From: Halogranum rubrum
GTDB taxonomy: Archaea > Halobacteriota > Halobacteria > Halobacteriales > Haloferacaceae
Assembly: GCF_900114455.1 (NCBI RefSeq)
Contig: NZ_FOTC01000002.1
Span: 124,001 to 188,000, forward strand
Length of the DNA stretch: 64,000 nt
Direction: 5' to 3'
Below, one piece after another: positions 12,936 to 35,318 of the stretch (its first letter is position 1; every line of letters starts with the position of its first letter). Under the pieces are notes generated by a model that had not been told where the DNA came from, did no database searches, and saw only the letters and a list, made by a program, of their open reading frames with translations. The translations under genes were made by a program, and so were the position numbers.

Positions 12936-12971
12936 GTGAAACTTTTTCACGATGCGAAAGCCGTATACGGG
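12936..12971 (+). promoter_or_regulatory. Palindrome plus TATA box before the HTH regulator
   Basis: GTGAAACTTTTTCAC (12936-12950, 6-bp arms) is followed by CCGTATACGG (12962-12971), which places a TATA box about 25 nt before ATG 12991. The palindrome lies directly upstream of the TATA region, where an autoregulatory operator would be expected. Confidence 0.4.
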
Positions 12972-12990
12972 AGTGTCGAGACTGCCCTGT

Positions 12991-13779
12991 ATGGAGTCCG
13001 CACTGGCGGAGGTCGAGTTTCTCGCACTCTCGCCGAATCGGGTCGACACGCTGCGGTTACTCGCCGACGGACCGTACACCCGTCGGGAACTGGTCGAAGA
13101 GACGGGCGCATCACAGCCAACGCTGGGACGTATCCTCGGCGACTTCGAGGAACGGTCGTGGGTCGTCCGCGAGGGAAGTACGTATCGTGCGACAGCGACT
13201 GGACGACTCGTCGCGAACGGGTTCGGCCACCTGCTCGACATCCTCGACACCGAGGCCAAACTGCGCCCGGTGGTTCGGTGGCTTCCGACCGACACCATGT
13301 CGTTCGACCTCGACCACCTCACGGCCGCGACGGTGACGACACCGAGTCAGGTCCGCCCGAACGCGCCGGTCAAGCGAGCGCTCGACCTCTTGGAAGACGC
13401 CGAGGAAGTTCGTATCGTCTCGTACGCCTTCAACGAACAGAGCTTGGACGTCGTCGTCGACCGGACGCAGGCCGGCGAACAGCGGTTCGAGGGAGTGTTC
13501 TCTTCCGCCGCCATCGACGCGCTCGCCGACGACTCGCGACTCCGCCACCAACTCCGCGAACTACTCGACTCCGACCGAGCGTCGGTGCGCATCACGGACG
13601 AGGATATTCCACTTGCCGCGACGGTTGCCGATTCGGTCGTCCACCTCTTCTTGCGCGACGACCGGGGTATCCTCCAGGCGTCACTCGACGTCGACGAACC
13701 TGCCGTCAGTGCGTGGGCCGACGACCTGTTCGCTCGCTACTGGGAGACGGCGACACCGCTCGACAGCGACCAGTTGTAG
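12991..13779 (+). CDS. HTH transcriptional regulator with FilR1/DUF1724-like C-terminal domain
   Basis: 262 aa from ATG 12991 (MESALAEVEFLALSPNR). The N-terminal winged HTH (ADGPYTRRELVEETGASQPT, then LGRILGDFEERSWVVREG) is followed by a C-terminal domain with segments VRIVSYAFNEQSLDVVVDRT, FSSAAIDALADD and VHLFLRDDRGILQASLDVDE. This layout is that of the large haloarchaeal/methanogen family of HTH proteins with a FilR1-type sensor domain. The 13-residue upstream extension from 12952 is rejected because of the TATA spacing. The target is unknown; it is divergent from the EamA transporter and could control it. Confidence 0.82.
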   Translation: MESALAEVEFLALSPNRVDTLRLLADGPYTRRELVEETGASQPTLGRILGDFEERSWVVREGSTYRATATGRLVANGFGHLLDILDTEAKLRPVVRWLPTDTMSFDLDHLTAATVTTPSQVRPNAPVKRALDLLEDAEEVRIVSYAFNEQSLDVVVDRTQAGEQRFEGVFSSAAIDALADDSRLRHQLRELLDSDRASVRITDEDIPLAATVADSVVHLFLRDDRGILQASLDVDEPAVSAWADDLFARYWETATPLDSDQL

Positions 13780-14310
13780 GCCGATTGCGTGTTCGACCGT
13801 TCTCCGGCGACGCCGCTTGGTTGCGACCAGTCTCTCGGCGATACTTCGACAGGCTTCAAAATGTCCAAACAACTCCAACAAAAAAGGTTCTAACTCGTAT
13901 GAATACCTTCGAGAGACTATGTAGGAACCGATGTAAAACGTGTCTATAGCAGTAGTAGCGCGTATATGTGGTGGATTGGTCTGTAGTCCATCTAAAGATG
14001 GAAAGAAGAGCTGAACTCGCATATGTTTCAGTCAAGCCAGAAAAATGCGCGAATAGTTGATAGATTCCAATAGATAAGCAGAAAAGCATTCGAGAATCGA
14101 CTTTACTCCTCTCTAATTCTCCAATCGATAGTAAGATCATTAGAACATATTTTATTGGATAAATTCGCGGTGTTATTCACCAGGCGATTCGTGACGATTC
14201 GGGTTCCTCAGGGGAACCCGTTACAGTTGTAGGTGTGTAATCTCCGAGACACCAGTGAGCGACCTAATGTGACAAGTATAGAACTGTAACGTCTGTGGCT
14301 ACGTATGGGC
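13780..14310. other. AT-rich gene-poor DNA left of the catabolic cluster
   Basis: From about 13,840 the base composition falls sharply compared with the genes on both sides, with many in-frame stops in all frames. I see no convincing gene. An 8-bp perfect stem (CGGGTTCC/GGAACCCG, 14201-14221, 5-nt loop) and a leftward TATA-like CTATACTT (14275-14283) are the only organised signals. The composition suggests a remnant of inserted DNA or a long regulatory spacer. Confidence 0.5.
14201..14221. terminator. 8-bp perfect hairpin
   Basis: CGGGTTCC pairs with GGAACCCG around the loop TCAGG. It lies downstream of the leftward promoter-like signal at 14275-14283, where it could end or attenuate a short leftward transcript. 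Confidence 0.35.
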
Positions 14311-14327
14311 GTTCATCACTGCTAAAC
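14311..14327 (-). promoter_or_regulatory. 17-bp palindromic operator candidate, site C
   Basis: On the minus strand it reads GTTTAGCAGTGATGAAC, matching the pattern GTTTAGC-NNTGNTN-AAC shared with sites A and B. It sits 28 bp from a leftward TATA-like CTATACTT (14275-14283), the same spacing as site A to the SDR TATA box. Confidence 0.5.
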
Positions 14328-14644
14328 GACAACGAACCTCTCGCAGACAACTCACTACGATTGTGGTATTTCGTCACAGAAACGAGTTAGCTAGCCAACG
14401 CATAGCGCGGACAACACGTCGCTCGACGAGATGAGTAATTATCGGGTCGGATAGTGGTACACGAAACCGCTCACACGCGAGAGATGACCCACGTAATCGG
14501 GGGCTTTCGACCGGTAGTTGGAACGAGTTGCCGTCGCCGATATATTCCACTTCCCTCACCGACGAAAACCGCATGGTGAGGCGGCCTCGAACTGATTCTC
14601 ACCGAGAATGACGGGTTGAGTAGTACGTCTACGTCGGCTGTGTC

Positions 14645-14661
14645 GTTTAGCTCTCCTAAAT
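14645..14661 (+). promoter_or_regulatory. 17-bp operator candidate, site D
   Basis: GTTTAGCTCTCCTAAAT agrees with site A at 13 of 17 positions, including the complete left half-site GTTTAGC. It lies 111 bp upstream of site A. Confidence 0.4.
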
Positions 14662-14755
14662 CGTGTGCTGTGACTGTCTCTGTACGACACTGGGCATTCA
14701 GTCGGCGTGGGATAGACGCTGTCTCTGCTCACACCCTCCTCGGTAGTTCTCGAGG

Positions 14756-14772
14756 GTTTAGCAGTGCTAAAC
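14756..14772 (+). promoter_or_regulatory. 17-bp perfect palindrome, operator site A
   Basis: GTTTAGCAGTGCTAAAC has perfect 8-bp arms around a single central G. It lies 26 bp upstream of the SDR TATA box, the usual place for an archaeal activator or repressor site. It is the best-formed member of the site family seen across the catabolic cluster. Confidence 0.65.
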
Positions 14773-14836
14773 ACCGACTGACGATGTCTCGGCACGAAAC
14801 TTTATACACTCTGTCGAGAGAATCCAGCCTGTATTC

Positions 14837-15628
14837 ATGGAGTTAGACCTAACTGGAAACAGTGCTCTCGTGACGGCGTCGAGTAGCGGACTCGGTAAGG
14901 CGTCGGCGACGGCACTCGTACGCGAAGGAGCGAACGTCGTAATCAATGGGCGTGACGAAGACGCACTCGCGGCCGCCAAAGCAGAAATCGAAGAGGTAGC
15001 GGAGGGAACCGTCGTCGCGCAACCGGGCGACCTGACGGAGAAAGACGATATCGAAGCGCTCGTTCAGAGGGCTGTCGACGAGTTCGGTGGACTGGACCAC
15101 CTCGTCACCTCCGCTGGTGGACCGCCGAGCGGTCCGTTCATGGAGACGACGGACGACGACTGGTACCAGGCGTTCGACCTCCTCGTGATGAGCGTCGTCC
15201 GACTCGTCCGTGAGGCCGCCGACCCCTTGGCGGCCGACGGCGGCGGGACAATCGTCAACATCACCTCTCGGAGCGTGAAGGAAGCAATCGACGGCCTCGT
15301 CCTCTCGAACTCGGTTCGCATGAGCGTCATCGGACTGGAGAAGACGCTGTCGCGCGAACTCGCGCCCGAGGTCCGAGTCAACGCGGTGTTGCCCGGTCCA
15401 CACGAGACGTCTCGCATCGAGGAGTTGGTCGAACAGGGTGTCGAACACGGCCAGTACGAGTCCTACGAACAGGGACTCGAAGAGCGGAGTAGCAGCATCC
15501 CGGTGGGTCGACTCGGCGACCCGATGGAACTCGGCGACACCGTCGCGTACCTCTCCTCGGACCGCTCCGGCTACATCAACGGTATCTCCGTCCCCATCGA
15601 CGGCGGAAACGGGAAGTCGAACCTGTAA
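14837..15628 (+). CDS. Atypical short-chain dehydrogenase (SDR) lacking the Tyr-Lys pair
   Basis: 263 aa. The Rossmann nucleotide-binding loop is present as TASSSGLGKASATAL (residues about 9-23), with INGRDEDALAAAKAEIEEVA after it, and the LVTSAGG motif (residues about 90-96). The catalytic YxxxK is absent: the aligned segment is SNSVRMSVIGLEKTL, so Tyr and Lys are Ser and Arg. This divergent SDR subfamily is known by sequence but its chemistry is less clear. In context it is a candidate for oxidising a 2-keto-3-deoxy sugar acid. The FAH gene follows after one base. Promoter: TATA CTTTATACAC preceded by site A. Confidence 0.85.
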   Translation: MELDLTGNSALVTASSSGLGKASATALVREGANVVINGRDEDALAAAKAEIEEVAEGTVVAQPGDLTEKDDIEALVQRAVDEFGGLDHLVTSAGGPPSGPFMETTDDDWYQAFDLLVMSVVRLVREAADPLAADGGGTIVNITSRSVKEAIDGLVLSNSVRMSVIGLEKTLSRELAPEVRVNAVLPGPHETSRIEELVEQGVEHGQYESYEQGLEERSSSIPVGRLGDPMELGDTVAYLSSDRSGYINGISVPIDGGNGKSNL

Positions 15629-15629
15629 C

Positions 15630-16457
15630 ATGACCAGACTCGCACGCACGACAGACGGTGCGGCACTACTCGGCGACGACAGCGGGTTCGTCCCCCTTCG
15701 GTCGGCGCTGCCGGCCTGCTCGACGACGGCCGACGCGCTGGCGCTCGCCGCGAGCGGTGACCTCCCCTCGGTCGACGAGACGCCCTCGACGCCGATAGTG
15801 GAAGACGACGTGCGGTTTTCGACCCCGCTCGACGCGTTCGGCAAACTCTGGGGTATCGGCCTCAACTACGCCGACCACGCCGCCGACCTGAACGAAGAAC
15901 GACCGACGCAACCGGCGAGTTTCATGAAACCGTCGACGGCGGTGACCGGTCCGGTTGGACCCATCCGACTCCCACCGCGGGAGCTGACCGACCGCGTCAC
16001 GGCCGAGGCCGAACTCGGCGTCGTCATCGGTCGTGAGTGTCGGAACGTGTCGGTCGACGACGCCGACGACGTCGTCGCCGGCTACGTCCCCATCATCGAC
16101 ATGACGGCCGAGGACATCCTCGAACAGAACCCGCGGTATCTGACCCGGTCGAAGAGTTTCGACTCGTTCATCGTCGTCGGCCCGTGGCTTCGGACGACCG
16201 ACGAAGTCGACTCGCTGGACGACGTGACCGTCAAGACCGTCGTCAACGACGACGTCGTCGCCGAGAACACGGTGGCGAACATGATGACCCGGCCCAACGA
16301 ACTCGTCTCCTTCCACTCGGAGGTCATGACGCTCCAACCCGGCGACGTTATCTCGACGGGAACACCGGGTGCGCACGTCATCGCGCCGGGCGACTCGGTG
16401 CGCGCAGAAGTCGACCACGTCGGCACCCTCTCGGCAGACGTCGTTCAGGGTCGCTAA
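15630..16457 (+). CDS. Fumarylacetoacetate hydrolase (FAH) family enzyme
   Basis: 275 aa from ATG 15630, one base after the SDR stop, so the two are co-transcribed. The catalytic domain shows LWGIGLNYADHAADLNEE, FMKPSTAVTGPVGPI, AEAELGVVIGRECRNV (two metal-binding Glu), VPIIDMTAEDI (Asp ligand) and PGDVISTGTPGAHVIAPGD. FAH-family proteins in sugar-acid pathways act either as 2-keto-3-deoxypentonate dehydratases (known in Haloferax xylose degradation) or as 2,4-diketo-3-deoxy-acid hydrolases (known in L-rhamnose degradation, where they work with an SDR). The SDR partner favours the hydrolase role, but either is possible. Confidence 0.85.
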   Translation: MTRLARTTDGAALLGDDSGFVPLRSALPACSTTADALALAASGDLPSVDETPSTPIVEDDVRFSTPLDAFGKLWGIGLNYADHAADLNEERPTQPASFMKPSTAVTGPVGPIRLPPRELTDRVTAEAELGVVIGRECRNVSVDDADDVVAGYVPIIDMTAEDILEQNPRYLTRSKSFDSFIVVGPWLRTTDEVDSLDDVTVKTVVNDDVVAENTVANMMTRPNELVSFHSEVMTLQPGDVISTGTPGAHVIAPGDSVRAEVDHVGTLSADVVQGR

Positions 16458-16459
16458 AC
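16443..16459 (-). promoter_or_regulatory. 17-bp operator candidate, site F
   Basis: On the minus strand GTTTAGCGACCCTGAAC: the full left half-site GTTTAGC and the right-half TGAAC of sites B and C are kept. It overlaps the end of the FAH gene and lies 39 bp before the TATA box of the dehydratase gene. Confidence 0.45.
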
Positions 16460-16472
16460 ACGCGCGTCCCGG

Positions 16473-16506
16473 GTCAACAGTTGACTCGGGGACAATCGTT
16501 ATATAC
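16473..16506 (+). promoter_or_regulatory. Promoter of the dehydratase gene with a short palindrome
   Basis: TATA box TTATATAC at 16499-16506 is about 29 nt before ATG 16532. A second palindrome GTCAACAGTTGAC (16473-16485, 6-bp arms) sits directly upstream. Confidence 0.55.
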
Positions 16507-16531
16507 TCGCAGTAGGTCGGTGAGGGTGCGC

Positions 16532-17665
16532 ATGAAAATCGTAGAAGTCGAGAGCTTCGCGGTATCGATTCCGCTCGACGACCCTGTCGCGTTCGCGACG
16601 CGTGTCGTCGAAGAGCGAGACCACACAATCGTCTACGTCCGCACCGACGACGGTACCGAAGGACTCGGATACACGCTCGGATACGGCGGCGCAGACGTCA
16701 TCGCCGCCGCCGTCGACTCTGTCTTAGCACCGATGGTGCTCGGCGAGGACCCGCGTGACACCGAACGCCTCTGGCGTGAGATGTTCGAGGGGACGGTCCA
16801 AATCGGCCGAAAGGGCGTGCTGCTCCGGGCAATCTCCTGTATCGACACCGCACTCTGGGACATCAAAGCCAAAGACGCCGACCAACCGCTCTACAAACTG
16901 CTCGGCGCGTACTCCGACGAAGTCGCCGCGTACGCCAGCGGTGGCTACTACCGCGAGGGCAAGGGACTGGAGGGACTCCGCGACGAGATGCAGCGCTACG
17001 TCGACCGCGGCCACGACACGATGAAGATCAAGGTCGGACGTCTCTCCGTCGAAGAAGAAGTCGAACGCGTCCGAGTCGCTCGCGAGACCATCGGTCCAGA
17101 GCGCACGCTCCTCTTGGACGCGAACGGGAAGTGGCGAAACAAACAGGAGGCCGTCCGGGCCTGCCGCCGGTTCGCCGAGTACGACCCCTACTTCATCGAG
17201 GAACCGGTCATCGCCGACAGCGTCGAACTGATGGGCGAGGTCAACGAGGCGCTCGACTACGCCGTCGCCTCCGGCGAGTTGGAGTTCTCGCGATACGGCT
17301 TCTCCGAACTGCTCCGAGAGGACGCCGTCGAGATTATCCAACCCGACGTGACCGTCGTCGGCGGCGTCACCGAGTGGATGCGCGTCGCCAACACGGCCGC
17401 CGTCAGCGACATCCCGGTCGCGCCGCACTACAACTGGGACCTGCACGCGCAGTTGCTCGCCGCCGTCGAGAACGGTCTCTGGGTCGAATACTTCCACCGC
17501 GACTCCGACGTGAAGGTGTTCGACGACATCATCGAGAACCCCCTCACCCCCGAGGAGGGTGTCATCGAACTGCCCGACCGACCGGGCCACGGCGTCACGC
17601 TCGACGACGAGATGCTCGACGAGTTCCGCATCGGCGAAGAGAAACGCGTCACACGGCTCGACTGA
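16532..17665 (+). CDS. Mandelate racemase/enolase-superfamily sugar-acid dehydratase
   Basis: 377 aa, the family's usual length. The catalytic set is complete: K165-I-K167 in TMKIKVG, metal ligands D196 (LLLDANG), E223 (FIEEPV) and E249 (ASGE), then QPD (about residue 272) and H299 (VAPHYNWDLH). The KxK base plus His matches sugar-acid dehydratases (galactonate, rhamnonate, xylonate type) that turn an aldonate into a 2-keto-3-deoxy acid. The precise substrate cannot be read; ribonate or another pentonate fits the neighbouring nucleoside genes. It has its own promoter and operator candidate F. The start ATG 16532 matches the canonical MKIVEVESF beginning. Confidence 0.88.
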   Translation: MKIVEVESFAVSIPLDDPVAFATRVVEERDHTIVYVRTDDGTEGLGYTLGYGGADVIAAAVDSVLAPMVLGEDPRDTERLWREMFEGTVQIGRKGVLLRAISCIDTALWDIKAKDADQPLYKLLGAYSDEVAAYASGGYYREGKGLEGLRDEMQRYVDRGHDTMKIKVGRLSVEEEVERVRVARETIGPERTLLLDANGKWRNKQEAVRACRRFAEYDPYFIEEPVIADSVELMGEVNEALDYAVASGELEFSRYGFSELLREDAVEIIQPDVTVVGGVTEWMRVANTAAVSDIPVAPHYNWDLHAQLLAAVENGLWVEYFHRDSDVKVFDDIIENPLTPEEGVIELPDRPGHGVTLDDEMLDEFRIGEEKRVTRLD

Positions 17666-17813
17666 AGAATCAACCCTAGATGACGGCCGACACGACGAGT
17701 CCTGCGCCACCAGCTCGACGTGTCGTCCCGATGGGAGTCAGGGCACCCCATCAGGTGGGTCGCCGTCGACACCACCTGAACGCTTTTGTAGTGGTACCAT
17801 GAACCGGAGTACC

Positions 17814-18650
17814 ATGCAGGTGTTACTCACCGGTGCATACGGTCGCGTCGGAACCGCCATCATCGACCACCTCGCGGACCGAGACGAGTACGATTTCACG
17901 TATCTCAACCGGTCCGACCGCCCGAACCACGAGACGTTCGTCGCGGACGTCTCCGACTACGAGGCGATGCGTCCCGCCTTCGACGACAAGGACGCGGTCA
18001 TCCACCTCGCGGGCTACCCCGAGACGGACGGGACGTGGGACGAAGTTCACGAGAACAACATCGTCGGGATGCAGAACGTGCTCAAAGCGACCCGTGAGGC
18101 GGGCGTCGAGACGTTCGTGTTCGGGTCGACGAACCACGTCGTCGGCATGCACGAAGTCGACAACGCGCCCGACATCTACTATCCGGACTTCGGACTGCGC
18201 GTCCCGCACGACGCGCCGCACCGACCCGACTCCTATTACGGCACCTCGAAGGCGTTCGGCGAGGACCTGGGCCGCTACTACGTCGAGAACTTCGACGCCC
18301 CGACGCAGTTCTACGCGCTCCGAATCTGCAGCGTCCGCCACGAGGAGTACGACCACCCCTACGGCGACGCCGAACACGGCGTCGACGACGGCGAGTGGGA
18401 ACGCGGCAGCGACCAGTACGACGAGATGGTCGCACGCATGAAGGCGATGTGGCAGTCGCGCCGTGACCTCGCCCACCAAGTCGACTGCTGTCTGCAGGAC
18501 GAAGACGTCGAGTTCGGCGTGTTCAACGGTGTCAGTGACAACGACCGTCGCTGGTTCGACATCGAGAACGCCCGCGAGGTCATCGGCTACGACCCGCAGG
18601 ACAACGCCGAGGAGTGGGACGCGCCGCCGGAACGAAGCGGCGAGAGGTAG
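17814..18650 (+). CDS. Extended SDR, uronate-dehydrogenase/azf-like NAD-dependent sugar dehydrogenase
   Basis: 278 aa starting MQVLLTGAYGRVGTAI, with the NAD-binding glycine motif TGAYGRVG, the acidic segment FVADVSDYEAMRPAF, VIHLAGYPETDGTW, the Ser-containing FVFGSTNHVVGMHE and the catalytic Tyr-Lys in SYYGTSKAFGEDLG. The STNHVVG segment is characteristic of uronate dehydrogenases and of the haloarchaeal azf-type glucose-6-phosphate dehydrogenase. It probably oxidises C1 of a sugar to a lactone. An ATG at 17799 (MNRST) is in frame, but starting at the second ATG places the Rossmann strand at the N-terminus. A TATA-like CTTTTGTA (17783-17790) is close upstream. Confidence 0.85.
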   Translation: MQVLLTGAYGRVGTAIIDHLADRDEYDFTYLNRSDRPNHETFVADVSDYEAMRPAFDDKDAVIHLAGYPETDGTWDEVHENNIVGMQNVLKATREAGVETFVFGSTNHVVGMHEVDNAPDIYYPDFGLRVPHDAPHRPDSYYGTSKAFGEDLGRYYVENFDAPTQFYALRICSVRHEEYDHPYGDAEHGVDDGEWERGSDQYDEMVARMKAMWQSRRDLAHQVDCCLQDEDVEFGVFNGVSDNDRRWFDIENAREVIGYDPQDNAEEWDAPPERSGER

Positions 18651-18654
18651 GGAG

Positions 18655-19602
18655 ATGGCCGAAAAACTCCTCCTCGACGTCGACCCCGGTCTGGACGACT
18701 CCATCGCGCTGCTCATGGCGTTCGGCAGCGACGCCGTCGACGTCGTCGGCGTCACGTCGGTGATGGGCAACACCGAACTGGAACATACGACCGAGAACGC
18801 CCGGTCGCTCGTCGGGTTCGCGAGAGCGTCCGACGTCCCCGTCGCGGCGGGCGCGGCACGGCCGTTCTGCGACACGCTCGTCGACGCCGAGTACGTCCAC
18901 GGCCCGAGCGGCATCCCGGACGTCGCACGGCAGCATCTCCCCGACCGAAAGGCCGAACTGAGCGACTCGGGTGCCGCGGAGTTCATCGTCGAACAGGCGC
19001 GCGAGCACGGTGATGACCTGACCATCGCCGCACTCGGCCCGCAGACGAATCTCGCACTCGCACTCGCCGTCGAACCGCGCGTCGCCGACTGGGTGGGCGA
19101 CATCTACCAGATGGGCGGTGCCCTCACGGCGACAGGGAACATCACGCCCGCGGCGTCGTTCAACTTCTACGCCGACCCGGCGGCGGCGGCCCGCGTCGTC
19201 CAAGACGCCTCGCCGCGGATGGTCGGTCTCGACGTGACCGAACAGGCGTACGTCCCTCGGTCGGACTTCGACCGGTTCGACGAGGGGACGGCCGTCGGCG
19301 CGTTCGTCGGTGCCGCACTCGAATACAAGTCCAAAGACCCCGACAGCGGCTACGACATCGACGGCGCGTTCACGAGTGACGCCGTCGTCGTCGCCGACAT
19401 CGTCGACGACGTCCTCGACTACGAGGACGCCTACGTCGACATCGACACCTCTGGTGGCCCGTCACACGGTGCGAGCGTCTACGACGAACACGGCGTCCTC
19501 GAACGAGAACCGAACTGTTCGGTCGCCGTCGACATCGACGTCGACCGGTGTCGGCAGGTCGTCTACGACTCGCTCGACGCCGCCGAGCGTCTCGCGGAGT
19601 AG
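18655..19602 (+). CDS. Nucleoside hydrolase-like protein, paralogue 1 (divergent active site)
   Basis: 315 aa, 4 bp after the SDR. The calcium-binding N-terminal motif is intact (LLLDVDPGLDDS, residues 5-16), as are GVTSVMGNTELEHTTENA and TIAALGPQTNLALAL. Two features differ from classical inosine-uridine hydrolases when aligned by eye. The segment normally reading AEFN is ASFN (Glu to Ser at the ribose-binding Glu), and the normally HD-containing C-terminal motif is TSDAVVVA (His to Ser), with the metal Asp kept. It should cleave an N-glycosidic bond, but leaving-group or sugar specificity is probably altered. Shares all of these features with the next paralogue. Confidence 0.87.
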   Translation: MAEKLLLDVDPGLDDSIALLMAFGSDAVDVVGVTSVMGNTELEHTTENARSLVGFARASDVPVAAGAARPFCDTLVDAEYVHGPSGIPDVARQHLPDRKAELSDSGAAEFIVEQAREHGDDLTIAALGPQTNLALALAVEPRVADWVGDIYQMGGALTATGNITPAASFNFYADPAAAARVVQDASPRMVGLDVTEQAYVPRSDFDRFDEGTAVGAFVGAALEYKSKDPDSGYDIDGAFTSDAVVVADIVDDVLDYEDAYVDIDTSGGPSHGASVYDEHGVLEREPNCSVAVDIDVDRCRQVVYDSLDAAERLAE

Positions 19603-19677
19603 GGGAGTCGGTCCGGTCGGACGACACCTTCGGGAAAACGCTTATCGTGGCCCTCCGAAAACTGACGGTCGAACCCG

Positions 19678-20616
19678 ATGGCCCAGAAGCTACTGATAGA
19701 CACAGATCCCGGTAACGACGACGCAATCGCACTGTACGTCGCACTCGCCGACCCGTCCGTCGACGTCGTCGGCGTGACGACGGTGATGGGCAACACGACG
19801 CTCGACAACGCGACGCGGAACGCACTGGCACTCCTCGAACACGTCGACAGAACCGACGTCCCGGTGATTCCGGGTGCGGCGCGACCCTTCTCGGACGAAC
19901 TCGTGACCGCCGAAGAGGTCCACGGCCCCGGTGGCCTGCCGGAACACGTCCGCGAGGCACTCCCCGAACCGACGCAGGAACCTGTAGACGGTAACGCGGT
20001 CGAGTTCATCGTCGAGCAGGCGCGCGAACACCGCGACGACCTGACCATCGCCGCCCTCGGCCCACAGACAAACCTCGCGCTGGCACTCGCCGTCGAACCA
20101 CGTATCGCGGAGTGGGTCGACGACATCTATCTCATGGGCGGCGCGCTGACGGTGACGGGAAACGTCACGCCGATGGCCTCGTTCAACTTCTACGTCGACG
20201 CGGCCGCCGCCTCGCGCGTCGTCCAGGAGGCGACCCCCAAACTCGTCGGTCTCGACGTCACCGAGCGTGTATACGTCTCGACCGCCGAAATCGAACGCCT
20301 TCAGGGCGAACCCGAACCGCTGTCGACCATCGGCGACATCCTCGCGTTCAGCATCGACGAGGTTCGCGACAAGTTCGGCAACGACGGTGGTCTCGCGAGC
20401 GACGCGGTGCTCGTCGCCGACATCGTCGCCGGCCTCCTCGACTACGAGGACGCCTACGTCGAAGTCGACACCACGGGCGGCCCGTCGAATGGCGCGACCA
20501 TCTACGACGAACACGGTGTCTACGGTCACGAACCGAACTGCGAGGGTGCGCTCGGCATCCGTGAGGACGCCTCTTACGAGGACATCGTCGTCGGCCGACT
20601 GGAGGAACTCGCCTGA
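19678..20616 (+). CDS. Nucleoside hydrolase-like protein, paralogue 2 (divergent active site)
   Basis: 312 aa. LLIDTDPGNDDAIAL is the family hallmark, followed by TTVMGNTTLDNATRNALAL and IAALGPQTNLALALAVEPRI, which is nearly identical to paralogue 1. As in paralogue 1, the sugar-site Glu is Ser (MASFNFYVDAAAA) and the catalytic-acid His is Ser (ASDAVLVADIV). A TATA-like CGCTTATCG at 19639-19647 suggests its own promoter although the gap is only 75 bp. The pair looks like a tandem duplication followed by divergence, possibly one for ribo- and one for another glycoside. Confidence 0.87.
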   Translation: MAQKLLIDTDPGNDDAIALYVALADPSVDVVGVTTVMGNTTLDNATRNALALLEHVDRTDVPVIPGAARPFSDELVTAEEVHGPGGLPEHVREALPEPTQEPVDGNAVEFIVEQAREHRDDLTIAALGPQTNLALALAVEPRIAEWVDDIYLMGGALTVTGNVTPMASFNFYVDAAAASRVVQEATPKLVGLDVTERVYVSTAEIERLQGEPEPLSTIGDILAFSIDEVRDKFGNDGGLASDAVLVADIVAGLLDYEDAYVEVDTTGGPSNGATIYDEHGVYGHEPNCEGALGIREDASYEDIVVGRLEELA

Positions 20617-20619
20617 ACC

Positions 20620-21336
20620 ATGACGGAACCAGTGCTCGAATACTACGGTCTGTCGTCGTTCGGCATCGAGTGGCGAGGGATGCAGATACTCGTCGACCCG
20701 TGGTTCACCGAACCCTCCTGGGAGACACCCTCGCTCGACGCGTTCGACGACGTGGACTACATCCTCGTCACCCACGGTGCGTACGACCATCTCGGCGACA
20801 CGTTTCCCATCGCTAAACGATCCGGCGCACACGTCTTTACCGAACCCGCCGTCGCCGACCATCTCCTCGACGAAGGGTTACCGGCGGAACAGGTGACGCG
20901 CGTCATCTGGGGTAACCCGTTCGACGTCGGCGGCGTCGTCTGTCGCGCACTGGAGACGCGGCACCTCTCGTACTTCGAGTCCGGCGACCGGCGTCTCTCG
21001 GGGATGCCGCTCGGCTTCCATCTGGACTTCGACGGCTTCGGCGTCTACTATCTGGGCGACACGTCCATCTTCAGTGACCTCGAACTGTTCGCCGACCTGT
21101 ACGACCCAGACGTGGCACTCGTTCCGATTGGGGCCGCACCCGGCGCGCGTGCGCCGCTGCCGCCACGAGAGGCCGCCGTCGTCACCGGGTGGTTAGACGT
21201 CGAGACGGTCGTTCCCGTCCACTACGTCCCCGGCAGCGACGAAGTCGAGGCGTTCCGTTCGCACCTCGACGACGCCGACGGAACGACCGAACTCGCCCGA
21301 CTGACGCCGTTCGACCGACGAGCACTCGGCGAGTAG
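20620..21336 (+). CDS. UlaG-like metallo-beta-lactamase-fold hydrolase, possible lactonase
   Basis: 238 aa, 3 bp after the nucleoside hydrolase. The fold's metal motif HGAYDHLGD (H52, D56, H57) replaces HxHxDH, as in the UlaG/YycJ-like branch. Other expected pieces are GMQILVDPWFTEPSW, ALETRHLSYFESGDRRLSGM, YYLGDTSIFSDLELF (Asp ligand) and VPVHYVPGSDE (His ligand). UlaG is a lactonase of sugar-acid lactones, so in this operon the protein is a good candidate for hydrolysing the lactone made by the upstream sugar dehydrogenase. That role is inference from family and context only. Confidence 0.8.
   Translation: MTEPVLEYYGLSSFGIEWRGMQILVDPWFTEPSWETPSLDAFDDVDYILVTHGAYDHLGDTFPIAKRSGAHVFTEPAVADHLLDEGLPAEQVTRVIWGNPFDVGGVVCRALETRHLSYFESGDRRLSGMPLGFHLDFDGFGVYYLGDTSIFSDLELFADLYDPDVALVPIGAAPGARAPLPPREAAVVTGWLDVETVVPVHYVPGSDEVEAFRSHLDDADGTTELARLTPFDRRALGE
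20802..20818 (-). promoter_or_regulatory. Intragenic 17-bp match to the operator family, site E
   Basis: Minus strand GTTTAGCGATGGGAAAC keeps the left half-site and the terminal AAC. It is inside the UlaG-like gene; it may be coincidental or an intragenic binding site. Confidence 0.25.
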
Positions 21337-21367
21337 TTCGAATTCGTGTCAGCGCTCTCTGCAGAAT

Positions 21368-21377
21368 GATTATATAG
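21368..21377 (+). promoter_or_regulatory. TATA box of the UxuA-like gene
   Basis: GATTATATAG, centred 27 nt upstream of ATG 21400, giving a leaderless transcript and a clear start for the gene. Confidence 0.7.
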
Positions 21378-21399
21378 CACACCTCACAACTGTGGGTCG

Positions 21400-22455
21400 A
21401 TGTCTGCCCAGACTTCACAGAGCGAAGCAGAGCGTCGGGAGCAGTTCGAACAGCTTCCGATGCGAGTGGCGATGGGCTCGTACCAGCCGCTGACCGACGA
21501 ACTACTCAGTCTCATGAAGCAACTCGGCGTCGACGACGTGCTGTTGACGCCACACCGTCACCCCGGATTCGACTCCGCGATGCCGATGGGTCGTGCGTGG
21601 ACCGTCGACGAGATTCAGGAGGTACAGGCGAAGATAGAGTCGCACGGACTCCGACTGTTCGCCTTCGAGAAGATGCCGATTCCGCTCTACGAGATTCTCC
21701 TCGGCGACGGCGACAGAGAAGAGAAGACGGAGGCCATCAAGACCACGATTCGGAACATGGGAGAAGCGGGCGTCCCGGTGCTCGGATACAGTGGTCACCC
21801 GCCAGACGGTGCGGTCCGAACCTCGCGGACCGTCGAGATTCGCGGCGGTGCCGAAGCCTCCGCGTTCTCGATGGACGACATCGACAGCGAGACGCTGCTC
21901 TACGACCGCGAGTACAGCGAAGACGAGATTTGGACCGCCTACGAAGAGTACCTCGAAGCGGTCATCCCCGTCGCCGAAGAGGCCGGTGTGCAACTCGGTG
22001 TCCACCCGAGCGACCCACCCGTCGAGAGTCTCGGCGGCGTTCCCCTCCTCTTCCGTAACTTCGAGAACTTCAAGCGCGCGCTCGACCTCGTCCCGAGCGA
22101 CAACCACGGCCTGAAGTTCTGTCTCGGCTGCTGGTCGGAGATGGGCGAGGACATCCCGGAGGTCCTCCGATACTTCGGCGGCGAGAACGTCATCTACGTC
22201 CACTTCCGCGACGTCATCGGGACGGTGCCGAGTTTCCACGAGACGTTCCTCGACGACGAGACGAGCAACTTCGACGAGTACGAGGTGATGAAGACGCTCC
22301 ACGAGATTGGGTTCTCCGGTGCGATGACGCCCGACCACGTCCCCTCGATGCAGGGTGACACCGAGTGGGAGTTCGGGAGCATCACCGGCCGCACGTACAC
22401 CGTCGGTTACCTCAAAGGGCTCCTCAAGGGCGTCCGCTCGGAAGCGAGTGACTGA
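21400..22455 (+). CDS. UxuA-like mannonate dehydratase family TIM-barrel protein
   Basis: 351 aa. Matches to the UxuA family include AGVQLGVHPSDPPVESLGG with the VPLLFRN that follows, HGLKFCLGCWSEMGEDIPEV, NVIYVHFRDVIGTVPSFHET and GAMTPDHVPSMQGD, giving the His, Cys, His and Asp-His metal ligands of that family in order. UxuA removes water from D-mannonate to give 2-keto-3-deoxygluconate; here the actual substrate may be another aldonate. It has its own strong leaderless promoter (GATTATATAG). Its presence gives the cluster two structurally unrelated sugar-acid dehydratases, suggesting that two sugar acids or two branches are handled. Confidence 0.82.
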   Translation: MSAQTSQSEAERREQFEQLPMRVAMGSYQPLTDELLSLMKQLGVDDVLLTPHRHPGFDSAMPMGRAWTVDEIQEVQAKIESHGLRLFAFEKMPIPLYEILLGDGDREEKTEAIKTTIRNMGEAGVPVLGYSGHPPDGAVRTSRTVEIRGGAEASAFSMDDIDSETLLYDREYSEDEIWTAYEEYLEAVIPVAEEAGVQLGVHPSDPPVESLGGVPLLFRNFENFKRALDLVPSDNHGLKFCLGCWSEMGEDIPEVLRYFGGENVIYVHFRDVIGTVPSFHETFLDDETSNFDEYEVMKTLHEIGFSGAMTPDHVPSMQGDTEWEFGSITGRTYTVGYLKGLLKGVRSEASD

Positions 22456-22586
22456 CACCGTCCGCGACCAGCGCTGACGACACTACGACCGACCCGGTTC
22501 ATCGACCGTCCAGTGAGTACCCTCTCGCGTACCGCGTTTGGCCGTCCCCCGAATACTTATTATGGCCCTCTCGAATGGTTCAGGCG

Positions 22587-23021
22587 ATGACGCTGAGCAT
22601 CTACTACGCAGCACCCCTGTTCACACAGGCAGAGCTAGACTTCAACGAGCGTGTCGTCGAGATGCTGGAGGCGGAAGGCTACGACGTCTTCCTGCCCCAG
22701 CGCGACGGCCTCGAGAGCGACACCCTCTCCGAGGAGAAGGGTGCGGAGGAGGCGATGCAGGAGATCTTCGAACTCGACCGGAAGAACGTCCTCGACGCCG
22801 ACCTCGTGACGGCGACGCTCGACGGCCGCGTCCCCTCCGAAGGCGTCTGCGTCGAGATGGCGTTCGCCTACGACCACGACATCCCCGTCGTCGCCTTCAA
22901 GACCGACCGCCGAACGTTCGGCTTCCGCGAGGAGTACAACGCGATGCTCTACGGCTTGTTCGAGGAGAAGGTCGAGACACCCGAGGCACTCGTCGAAGCA
23001 GTCGGGAAGTACGACAACTGA
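22587..23021 (+). CDS. Nucleoside 2-deoxyribosyltransferase-like protein, paralogue 1
   Basis: 144 aa from ATG 22587 (MTLSIYYAAPLFTQAELDFN). The flavodoxin-like fold of this family is recognisable: YYAAPLF at the N-terminus, the Asp in VTATLDGRVPSEGV and the nucleophile Glu in VCVEMAFAYDHDIPVVAFKT. Such enzymes move or hydrolyse 2-deoxyribose on nucleosides. An in-frame ATG four codons earlier (22575) is possible, but the TATA-like AATACTTATTA (22551-22561) sits about 27-30 nt before 22587. The 121 bp to the preceding gene contain nothing else recognisable. Confidence 0.82.
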   Translation: MTLSIYYAAPLFTQAELDFNERVVEMLEAEGYDVFLPQRDGLESDTLSEEKGAEEAMQEIFELDRKNVLDADLVTATLDGRVPSEGVCVEMAFAYDHDIPVVAFKTDRRTFGFREEYNAMLYGLFEEKVETPEALVEAVGKYDN

Positions 23022-23107
23022 GCCACTGATTCGGCCCCATCTGTCCCGCTCGATTCGGAACGACCGGACGCGAATCTTTATGTGTGTGATATGCATTGTC
23101 GAGAGCG

Positions 23108-23569
23108 ATGCAAGTCTACTTTGCAGCGCCGCTGTTCAATCAGGCGGAGCGTGAGTTCAACGCACGGGCCACCGAGGCACTCGAATCGGCCGGGTACGAC
23201 GTCTTCCTGCCGCAGCGTGACGTCGGCGACATCGGCGAACTCGAAGTGATGGACCAAGAGGGTGTCTCCGACGAGGACGTGATGCAGGAGATATTCGAGA
23301 TAGACCGGCAGGGCGTCCTCGACGCCGACATCGTGACGGCGACGCTCGACGGCCGCGTTCCCTCCGAAGGAACCGTCATCGAGGCGGCCATCGCCCACGA
23401 ACACGGTATCCCGGTCGTCGGTCTCAAGACGGACCGTCGGGTGTTCGCGATGGACGAACCCTACAACGCGATGGTCTTCGGCGTCCTCGACGACATCGTC
23501 GACACGCCCGACGAACTCGTCGACGCCGTCGACGACCAAGCCGACCGACTCACAGCAGACTCCGAATAA
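23108..23569 (+). CDS. Nucleoside 2-deoxyribosyltransferase-like protein, paralogue 2
   Basis: 153 aa starting MQVYFAAPLFNQAEREFNAR, clearly paralogous to the preceding gene (YDVFLPQRD, QEIFEIDRQGVLDADIVTAT, LDGRVPSEGTVIEAAIAHEH are shared almost block for block). It carries an eight-residue insertion (GELEVMDQEGVS region) relative to paralogue 1. The nucleophile Glu is in TVIEAAIAHEHGIPVVG. The TATA box TCTTTATG (23074-23081) lies about 30 nt before ATG 23108, so it is transcribed separately. Tandem paralogues may form hetero-oligomers or divide purine and pyrimidine substrates. Confidence 0.82.
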   Translation: MQVYFAAPLFNQAEREFNARATEALESAGYDVFLPQRDVGDIGELEVMDQEGVSDEDVMQEIFEIDRQGVLDADIVTATLDGRVPSEGTVIEAAIAHEHGIPVVGLKTDRRVFAMDEPYNAMVFGVLDDIVDTPDELVDAVDDQADRLTADSE

Positions 23570-23634
23570 CTGGTCGAGTATGGTCGTCACAGTGAGCGTG
23601 CGTCTCTCTACCGGGTCGCTTCCGAGTCTCGCCG

Positions 23635-24531
23635 ATGCCGTTTGACGTCGTGAGCGTCGGTAGTAGCTACGCACTGGCCGCCGCTGCCGTATGGGGGGTG
23701 TTCCTCTTCTACTTCAAGCGGAACCTCGGTGACTATCCACCGACCGTCGCACTCGTCCTGACCAGTGTGTTCGGCGTGGCGTGGTACCTGCCAGTCACGG
23801 GCTACGCGCTCTGGGGCGGTGCGTCGGTCGTTCCGTCCTCGTTCGGCGTGACACAGTTCGCGTTCGCGGCACTCACCGTCGTCCTGTTCGCGTTGGCGCT
23901 TCTCACCTTCTACGCCGCCATCGGTCGCGGAACCGTCTCGCTCGTGACGCCCATCAGCAAGATTCATCCGGTGTTCGTCGTGCCCATGGAGGTGCTCGTC
24001 CTCGGTGCGCACGTCGCGCCGTTGCAGGTGGTCGGTATCGTGTTGGCGACTGTCGCCGTCTACCTCGCGAACTACTCGGGCGACGGGCTGTTGCTTCCCC
24101 TCCGGAGACTCGTCTCGTCGCGTCCGGCGCAACTCGGTTTACTCAGTGCCGTGTTGATGGCGCTCGTCAACGTCTCGCAACGAGCGCTGTTGTACGATTT
24201 CGCGATGACGCCGCAGGTGTGGGTCGTCGTCAAGAACGGCGGTGTCGCACTCCTCCTCGCACCGTTGGCGGCGCGACGCTGGTCGGTCGACGTGCGAGGA
24301 AATCTTCCGACGCTCGCCGTGGCTGGTCTGTTCGTCGCGACCGGTGAACATCTCGTCGCACTCGCTTACGCGGGCATCCCGGCGAGTGTTGCGGCACCGC
24401 TCATCAGTCTGCAAGCTATCGTCGCTGTCGTGCTCGCCGGGGTCCTCCTCGACGAGGACGACTTCCTGATTCGGTTGGTCGCCGCCCTCGTCGCCATCCT
24501 CGGTATCGCGTTTGTCACGTTGCCGCAGTAG
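23635..24531 (+). CDS. EamA-family (DMT) transporter
   Basis: 298 aa, ten hydrophobic helices in two repeats. The first helix pair reads YALAAAAVWGVFLFYFKRNL, and TPISKIHPVFVVPMEVLVLG and the closing PASVAAPLISLQAIVAVVLA, with LDEDDFLIRLVAALV after it, are typical EamA signatures. Placement between the deoxyribosyltransferase pair and the regulator suggests movement of a pathway compound, for example efflux of unused nucleobases or exchange of sugar acids; this is inference. Confidence 0.87.
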   Translation: MPFDVVSVGSSYALAAAAVWGVFLFYFKRNLGDYPPTVALVLTSVFGVAWYLPVTGYALWGGASVVPSSFGVTQFAFAALTVVLFALALLTFYAAIGRGTVSLVTPISKIHPVFVVPMEVLVLGAHVAPLQVVGIVLATVAVYLANYSGDGLLLPLRRLVSSRPAQLGLLSAVLMALVNVSQRALLYDFAMTPQVWVVVKNGGVALLLAPLAARRWSVDVRGNLPTLAVAGLFVATGEHLVALAYAGIPASVAAPLISLQAIVAVVLAGVLLDEDDFLIRLVAALVAILGIAFVTLPQ

Positions 24532-24642
24532 CATCTCTCTCACGCCGCTTTTCCGTCCGAGACCCGTCCCGAGGAACGCCGTCGTGGCGGTCACTTTCGA
24601 ATCGGAGGCTGGGTAACGGGACGGACATGACGCCACAGTCAT

Positions 24643-24659
24643 GTTTAGCCATGGTGAAC
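24643..24659 (+). promoter_or_regulatory. 17-bp operator candidate, site B, at the IclR promoter
   Basis: GTTTAGCCATGGTGAAC agrees with site A at 13 of 17 positions and keeps both half-sites. It ends 2 bp before the TATA-like AGACTTTTGC, so a bound protein would block the promoter: a classic autoregulation layout. Confidence 0.6.
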
Positions 24660-24694: not shown

Positions 24695-25495
24695 ATGAAG
24701 CCAGCAAAGAACCCCGTCGGCGCGGTCGAGACGACCATCGAACTCATCGAGGCGCTCGAATCCCTCGACGGTGCCACGGTGACCGAACTGGCGGACGCTC
24801 TCGGCGTCACCAAGGGGACGGCCCACAACCATCTCGCGACGCTCCAACAACACCACTACGTCGTCAAACAGGGCAACACGTACACGCTGAGTCTCAAGTT
24901 TCTCGTCATCGGTGAGTACCTCCGAAACAGTAGCGTCCTGTACGAGAACGCGAAAGCCGAAGTCGAGCAGTTGGCCGCCGACACGGGCGAGTACGCTCAC
25001 CTCTCGACGGAACAACACGGACTGAGTCAGAAACTCCACAAGGTCCGCGGCGAGTACGCCGTCGGCACCGAGTACCAGCGAGCGAAACTCCAGAAGCCCG
25101 ACTGTCTCCACTACACGGCCACCGGCAAGGCGATTTTGGCGTACCTTCCGAGAAGTCGCGTCGAAGAGATCATCGACTACTACGGGCTACCGGAGCGAAC
25201 GAAACAGACGATAACCGACCGCGACGAACTCTACGAGACGCTCGCCGAAATCCGCGAGCGAGGGTACGCACTCAACGACGAGGAAGAGGTCGAACGGATG
25301 CGCGCCGTCGGTGCGCCGATTCGAAACAAGGATGGGGCGGTCCTCGGTGCAGTGAGCGTCTCTGGTCCGGTGAGTCGGATGAAAGACGAGCAGTTCACCG
25401 ACGTGATGCCAGAAAAGGTGACGGATGCGGCGACGGTCATCGAGATGAACATCAACATGGCAGAACGGCGCGGAAACTTGCCTCGATACGTCTAG
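24695..25495 (+). CDS. IclR-family transcriptional regulator
   Basis: 266 aa from ATG 24695 (MKPAKNPVGAVETTIELIEA). N-terminal winged HTH: LDGATVTELADALGVTKGTA followed by HNHLATLQQHHYVVKQG. C-terminal IclR effector domain: EYAHLSTEQHGLSQKLHKV, LHYTATGKAILAYLPRSRVE, ERGYALNDEEEVERMRAVGA and GAVLGAVSVSGPVSRM. It very likely senses a sugar or sugar-acid intermediate and controls the surrounding genes. The operator candidate B overlaps its own promoter. The 18-codon upstream extension is rejected because the promoter lies inside it. Its stop codon directly abuts the stop of the convergent ABC ATPase gene. Confidence 0.9.
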   Translation: MKPAKNPVGAVETTIELIEALESLDGATVTELADALGVTKGTAHNHLATLQQHHYVVKQGNTYTLSLKFLVIGEYLRNSSVLYENAKAEVEQLAADTGEYAHLSTEQHGLSQKLHKVRGEYAVGTEYQRAKLQKPDCLHYTATGKAILAYLPRSRVEEIIDYYGLPERTKQTITDRDELYETLAEIRERGYALNDEEEVERMRAVGAPIRNKDGAVLGAVSVSGPVSRMKDEQFTDVMPEKVTDAATVIEMNINMAERRGNLPRYV

Positions 25496-34600: not shown

Positions 34601-35318
34601 GGCGAATCACCAACCGTACGTCGTGGACGACGAGATACGTCGTCCGGTCACCTGGATACTGCCCGACGACACTCGTCACGCCGTCGCCGTCGAAGTCTCG
34701 TCTGGTCGTCGTCGCGTTCTGCCGTGCGAAGTATCGTTCCCACGCGGCGGGTGTCGCCGTCTCGACGGCGACGCGATAGGAGTCGTTCCCGAGCGACTGT
34801 CGTCGGTGGCTGACGTTCGTCTCCAGTCGCACTCGTTGATTCGTCCCATCGACGGTGTCCGGACCCGACGCGTTCAGTCGTGCGACGCCGACGAGGAGCA
34901 CGTTCTCGGACGTCGCCAGCGGCGGGTCGGCCGTGAACCGCGCGTTCTCGCCCGTCCCGCGGACGACTGCGCCCGACGAGAAGGCGACGCGGTGGTGTTC
35001 GTTGCTGTAGACCAGGCCGTCGACGGACTCGTTTCTGACCACTCCCGAGTCGTTCAGGAGGCGGACGCTCCGGTCGACGCGGCGGAGTTTTCCGTCGGTG
35101 AACGAGACGTGACCGCTGTCGGGACCGGTCGCCGAGACGGGGTCGAGTGCCGCGTCGAGGTCGGTGGCGACGCGGCCCGCGTCGGCGGCGTCGGCGTTAC
35201 TCTGGACGACGGTGCCGATACTCGCCGTGAGCACACCGAGACTGAGCATCGTCACCCCGAGGAGGAGAGCGACGCCGACGACGGCGGATTGTGCACGTCC
35301 AGTGGGGTGGGCGTTCAC
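34593..35318 (-). CDS. Pilin-like membrane protein 1 of the pilus operon
   Basis: 241 aa from a GTG at 35318 overlapping the PilC-like stop (GTGA at 35315-35318). After a short leader (NAHPTGRAQSAVVGVALLLG) a hydrophobic helix continues to about residue 35, followed by a soluble domain with strands such as FTDGKLRRVDRSVRLLNDSG and TYLVVHDVRLVIRHG. The leader ending RAQSAVVG resembles pilin cleavage regions. The 34-residue extension to 35420 is rejected because it would overlap the PilC gene extensively. Confidence 0.77.
   Translation of the reverse strand: MNAHPTGRAQSAVVGVALLLGVTMLSLGVLTASIGTVVQSNADAADAGRVATDLDAALDPVSATGPDSGHVSFTDGKLRRVDRSVRLLNDSGVVRNESVDGLVYSNEHHRVAFSSGAVVRGTGENARFTADPPLATSENVLLVGVARLNASGPDTVDGTNQRVRLETNVSHRRQSLGNDSYRVAVETATPAAWERYFARQNATTTRRDFDGDGVTSVVGQYPGDRTTYLVVHDVRLVIRHG

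Follow-up and report, generated by a model that had tools for sequence, protein, structure and literature searches.

An IclR-type operator family predicted in a catabolic gene cluster of Halogranum rubrum, accompanied by a second palindrome possibly linked to RdfA

Which protein reads a family of 17-bp palindromes that recurs across a catabolic gene cluster of the haloarchaeon Halogranum rubrum is the question raised by the stretch of DNA studied here, a 64-kb window (contig NZ_FOTC01000002.1, positions 124001-188000) of a 4.57-Mb genome assembled in 17 contigs. From comparisons of sequence, it is very probable that these palindromes (consensus GTTTAGCN3GCTAAAC) act as operators of the IclR-family regulator encoded at 24695-25495, which would repress its own gene and activate the catabolic cluster. 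That the site family represents a real regulon of this local protein can be proposed with high confidence. Genome-wide statements below refer to pattern searches, and the matrix scan refers to the 64-kb window.

The pattern GTTTAGCNNNNNTRAAC (GTTTAGCN5TRAAC) is found at exactly four places in the whole genome, all of them within 14311-24659: at 14311-14327 (minus strand, GTTTAGCAGTGATGAAC), at 14756-14772 (no strand assigned), at 16443-16459 (minus strand, GTTTAGCGACCCTGAAC) and at 24643-24659 (plus strand, GTTTAGCCATGGTGAAC). The same pattern read backwards, used as a control, has no match in this genome. A fifth site with one mismatch is located at 14645-14661 (plus strand, GTTTAGCTCTCCTAAAT), and two full GTTTAGC halves are present only at 14756. 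The original prediction had listed these five sites, and their coordinates and letters were confirmed; it had also named equal density elsewhere in the genome as the outcome that would disprove it, and the pattern search instead placed all four exact sites in the cluster. When up to two mismatches were allowed, the window contained 13 matches against 2.15 expected, a number reached in none of 100 shuffles.

As GTTTAGCN5TRAAC had been drawn from the window's own sites and was therefore open to circularity, a matrix was also built for which only sites of relatives, 22 in all, were used. Its six top scores in the 64 kb were 14756 (28.4 bits), followed by 14311 (21.6 bits), 24643, 20802, 14645 (18.6 bits) and 16443, the last five ranging from 18.5 to 21.6 bits; all six exceed the maxima of 40 simulated windows, which averaged 9.1 and never rose above 14.7. 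The newcomer at 20802-20818 (minus strand, 18.6 bits; GTTTAGCGATGGGAAAC = GTTTCCCATCGCTAAAC) lies within a metallo-hydrolase gene and contains GCTAAAC at 20812-20818, so that the earlier statement that this word occurs outside the listed sites only near 628 has to be corrected. In the rest of the genome, matches with one mismatch occur at close to background frequency, and hence a site within coding DNA may be due to chance; no site was found at the corresponding place in the relatives examined, and the 20802 site could be such a case. A weak extra match at 35087-35103 (GTTTTCCGTCGGTGAAC, 13.8 bits) is close to the upper edge of the null distribution.

A chance cluster of GC-poor words in AT-rich intergenic DNA would fit the composition of 13850-14300 (GC 36-51%) and the lack of conservation of the dehydratase and 20802 sites, yet the shuffles, the reversed control, the relatives-only matrix and the positional conservation described below all argue against it, and we consider it extremely improbable, in agreement with the earlier judgement that the clustering was unlikely to be accidental. 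For the 14756 and 24643 sites in particular, a chance origin is refuted.

The attribution to the local IclR protein rests on comparative evidence from 119 genomes of the family, with exact-motif loci counted outside the source genome. An IclR gene lies within 1.5 kb of 14 of the 26 exact-motif loci (in ten genomes) compared with none of 16 reversed-pattern loci (p = 0.0002). In nine species, the window and eight relatives, the palindrome before iclR occupies a fixed position, a few bases ahead of a TATA-like stretch and with its centre about 44 bp before the start codon; the IclR proteins of the eight other species are 46-81% identical to that of the window, the closest orthologues being those of Halocatena marina (81%) and of Haladaptatus caseinilyticus and H. 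pallidirubidus (77% each). In H. caseinilyticus a single cluster unites genes for UxuA, both deoxyribosyltransferases, IclR, SDR, FAH, the dehydratase, the hydrolase, the Azf-like enzyme and the nucleoside hydrolase, and in two other genomes (G018 and G027) an SDR-FAH-dehydratase-Azf-nucleoside hydrolase cluster is divergent from a gene for a 46% identical IclR, with the motif in the shared intergenic region. The recognition helix of the window's protein (TKGTAHNH) carries a KGT that is present in 11 of 12 motif-associated regulators (34-81% identity to the window protein) and absent from all 21 paralogues of the source genome. The exception is KAT in H. pallidirubidus, where an altered palindrome, GTTCACCAATAGTGAAC, precedes the regulator gene. 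The fixed placement before iclR, the motif's position beside IclR genes of unrelated neighbourhoods, the common helix and the bacterial operator frame discussed below thus uphold the earlier choice of the local IclR as the regulator of these sites, and its binding is predicted.

Two other assignments were weighed against these data. The sites may belong to one or more IclR paralogues of shared specificity and not to the local protein alone, given that the source genome has 22 IclR-type genes and that the same motif in relatives accompanies IclR proteins only 34-46% identical to the window's. However, the four exact sites all lie within this cluster, the KGT helix is restricted to the local IclR in the source genome (one paralogue has KGS), and paralogues at about 50% identity show a different half-site, GTTCT, which makes this assignment unlikely. 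A regulator of another type, for instance TrmB, GfcR or the FilR1-like protein encoded next to the cluster (12952-13779), is suggested by the FilR1/HVO_A0261-type regulator gene directly upstream; as the motif tracks IclR genes in unrelated neighbourhoods and keeps its place before iclR in nine species, we regard this as more improbable still.

Several observations nevertheless weigh against the attribution to the local IclR. In the relatives, 12 of the 26 exact-motif loci have no nearby IclR gene, and the half-site varies even among orthologues, being GTTCACC before iclR in H. pallidirubidus. In Haladaptatus and Halocatena, the relatives examined for it, the site at the dehydratase promoter is not conserved; no recognisable SDR-promoter site was found in Halocatena, and the ABC transporter genes have no site.

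The proposed operator resembles one already described in bacteria, where the GTT-11-AAC subgroup of IclR group-1 operators has the 17-bp consensus GTTYCRYW3RYGRAAC (PMC8222616). Shared features are the length, the palindromic structure, the outer GTT/AAC and positions Y4, R6 and Y7, with 14756 exact in this frame and 14311, 16443 and 24643 keeping the GTT-11-AAC spacing. In addition, the centres of group-1 operators lie at -20 to -80 from the gene start, as here, and both own-gene and adjacent-operon sites are present (24643 before iclR, 14756 and 16443 before catabolic genes), as expected for autoregulation combined with control of neighbouring operons. The half-site GTTTAGC, however, agrees with GTTYCRY at only six of seven positions, having A instead of C at position 5, and unlike the group-1 operators the sites of the window stand at archaeal promoters with a TATA box and a B recognition element (BRE), the distal ones as far as about 0.5 kb upstream. 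By its sequence, the operator of the window is a variant of the bacterial group-1 operator and not an example of its consensus.

The placement of the sites relative to the promoters suggests how the local IclR could act; each palindrome would be read by an IclR dimer. At the iclR promoter, the putative autoregulatory operator at 24643 ends 4 bp before a TATA-like CTTTTGCA; as it abuts the BRE/TATA, bound IclR should block TBP/TFB, resulting in autorepression. At the SDR promoter, the putative operator at 14756, with its centre 73 bp before the ATG, ends 28 bp before the TATA box read from the sequence (TTTATA, 14801-14806, plus strand), a gap to TTTATA that is identical in H. caseinilyticus. 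At the dehydratase promoter, the putative operator at 16443, which overlaps the 3' end of the FAH gene, ends 39 bp before the TATA box (TTATATAC, 16499-16506, plus strand). Both catabolic operators thus lie upstream of TATA at an activator position, so that with a sugar or sugar-acid ligand IclR should switch on the cluster (SDR-FAH hydrolase-dehydratase-nucleoside hydrolase). It is likely that the roles of the sites differ accordingly between the TATA-adjacent site of iclR and those of the catabolic promoters, which lie 28-39 bp before TATA. The long control region is probably held by a tetramer with the help of the putative distal operators at 14311 and 14645. This region (13780-14836), located between the FilR1-like regulator and SDR, is about 1 kb of AT-rich DNA with few genes and is unusual in its length. 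Halocatena and Haladaptatus each have a pair of distal IclR-type sites with a spacing of exactly 157 bp, a long way before the following gene (4934/5091 at locus L071; 15150/15307 at L109); among the distal-site spacings of 111, 157, 189 and 315 bp, helical phasing is suggestive at some but not all loci, and is not claimed.

Activation of catabolic genes would be in line with the haloarchaeal IclR proteins XacR, RhcR, GacR and MscR, which activate the catabolism of sugars or sugar alcohols (PMC11519228). Like these, the regulator of the window is a haloarchaeal IclR whose gene belongs to or adjoins a sugar-catabolic cluster that includes a CUT1 ABC transporter, and the promoter position of its sites is of the activator type, the likeness being one of gene context and position; unlike theirs, the cluster of the window includes nucleoside hydrolases and deoxyribosyltransferases. 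For this clade of haloarchaeal IclR proteins, whose relatives control the use of carbon sources, the letters of the operator offer a binding code that can be tested.

The catabolic genes and iclR are all on the plus strand. The SDR dehydrogenase (14837-15628, Pfam adh_short_C2) is followed by an FAH-family hydrolase resembling 2,4-diketo-3-deoxy acid hydrolases (15630-16457, PF01557), whose match to the 2,4-didehydro-3-deoxy-L-rhamnonate hydrolase model is far under the cut-off, and by an enolase-superfamily sugar-acid dehydratase (16532-17665, MR_MLE). Next are an Azf-like NAD-dependent dehydrogenase (17814-18650, Epimerase; NCBIfam Azf under cut-off), two nucleoside hydrolases (18655-19602 and 19678-20616, both PF01156), a metallo-beta-lactamase-fold hydrolase (20620-21336), a UxuA-like TIM-barrel protein (21400-22455, PF03786) and two nucleoside 2-deoxyribosyltransferase-like genes (22575-23569, PF05014). 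The IclR protein, whose helix was identified by comparison, scores above the cut-offs of both its domains (HTH_IclR PF09339, 43.3 bits against 22; IclR_C PF01614, 115.3 bits against 24), and an EamA transporter and a sugar-type ABC transporter are also encoded in the region. We propose that this gene set serves a pathway of nucleoside hydrolysis, sugar oxidation, dehydration and diketo-deoxy acid cleavage, and the ligand of IclR may be a pentose or pentonate derived from nucleosides.

The control region upstream of SDR contains a second palindrome of a different kind, TTACAN4TAN4TGTAA, which is the more surprising of the two elements and is directly testable. One exact copy is located at 14221-14240 (TTACAGTTGTAGGTGTGTAA) and a one-mismatch copy at 14270-14289 (TGACAAGTATAGAACTGTAA), both without assigned strand; the distal operator 14311 lies 90 bp past the former and 41 bp past the latter. 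The genome has 27 copies of this TTACA element, all with the central TA, whereas the reversed control yields a single match, which is lost once the TA is required, and at the loci examined a gap of 10 is used almost alone. The association with IclR-type sites recurs: the element is again 38-87 bp from the distal IclR-type site in Haladaptatus and Halocatena, and 44-59 bp away, start to start, at further GTTTAGC-type loci (G062, G083, G027, G015, G074). Within 100 bp of the TTACA element, the density of IclR-type 17-bp palindromes of several half-sites is about 1.8 times that found farther away, an upper figure as some of the loci were chosen by motif. Fourteen of the 60 proteins called beside TTACA sites in the source genome are IclR regulators, and others are sugar-acid and sugar enzymes. 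Nothing relevant on the TTACA motif emerged from a search of the literature. The element may represent an alternative IclR site; however, it differs in length and core from the 17-bp palindromes and accompanies IclR sub-clades of differing half-site, and in G038, which has no IclR match at E <= 1e-40, the only genomic copy lies before rdfA.

That copy points to another binder. In genomes with few copies, the TTACA element precedes the genes encoding RdfA (PF21811) and ASRP, its SMC-like partner, and in two genomes (G038 and G088) the sole genomic copy is in the rdfA promoter. Across the rdfA upstream regions of all relatives, 25 of 130 contain the exact element, most often 67-90 bp before the start of the RdfA domain, and ten the form TAACAN4TAN4TGTTA, compared with none for the reversed control. 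On the tree of RdfA proteins, the two forms fall into clusters, the TTACA form requiring seven changes against a shuffled mean of 23 (none of 500 shuffles was as low). Either form is present in 93 of 100 RdfA-bearing genomes and in none of 19 RdfA-less ones, although most of the latter also lack an IclR match and the comparison is not fully independent; the contrast also holds within genera, as in g5, where the element occurs in five of five RdfA-bearing and none of six RdfA-less genomes. The single rdfA of the source genome (locus G000:C5:47535-48595, L299; L302) is preceded by the element at a distance of 171 bp and followed immediately by an ASRP gene.

In Haloferax volcanii, RdfA and Sph3 are required for rod shape and motility, the function of RdfA being described as unknown (PMC10869688), and the ASRP family includes the Sulfolobus coalescin (PMC9389158). 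The order of rdfA and ASRP in the source genome resembles this RdfA-Sph3 module and the ASRP-coalescin family; a DNA-binding site, unlike the roles in rod shape and motility, is not reported for RdfA in either study. The confidently predicted RdfA structure (predicted local distance difference test score, pLDDT, 93.5) is mostly helical with a C-terminal cysteine motif, and a structure search against the PDB gave no fold match at E <= 0.001, leaving DNA binding without fold support. On the genomic evidence we infer that RdfA is the best candidate binder of the TTACA element, and another regulator that also controls rdfA is a possible one.

A wider model, to which we assign somewhat less than an even chance, is that of a composite control region in which the operators of the local IclR neighbour TWACAN4TAN4TGTWA elements that RdfA would bind. 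RdfA would in turn bring ASRP (Sph, coalescin family) to some two dozen loci, of which many are catabolic operons under IclR control on secondary replicons. If this is true, a cell-shape factor would be a sequence-specific DNA-binding protein, and an SMC-like ATPase would be tied to carbon-source gene control in archaea. With the TTACA element it can be tested directly and cheaply whether RdfA and the SMC-like ASRP proteins of haloarchaea work at specific DNA sites.

Elsewhere in the source genome (loci L147, L148, L167 and L112), other IclR sub-clades appear to use distinct 17-bp palindromes (GTTCTCTAAACCAGAAC, GTTCTCACGCTCAGAAC and GTCCAATATTATTGGAC), several of which lie about 43-47 bp from a TTACA element.

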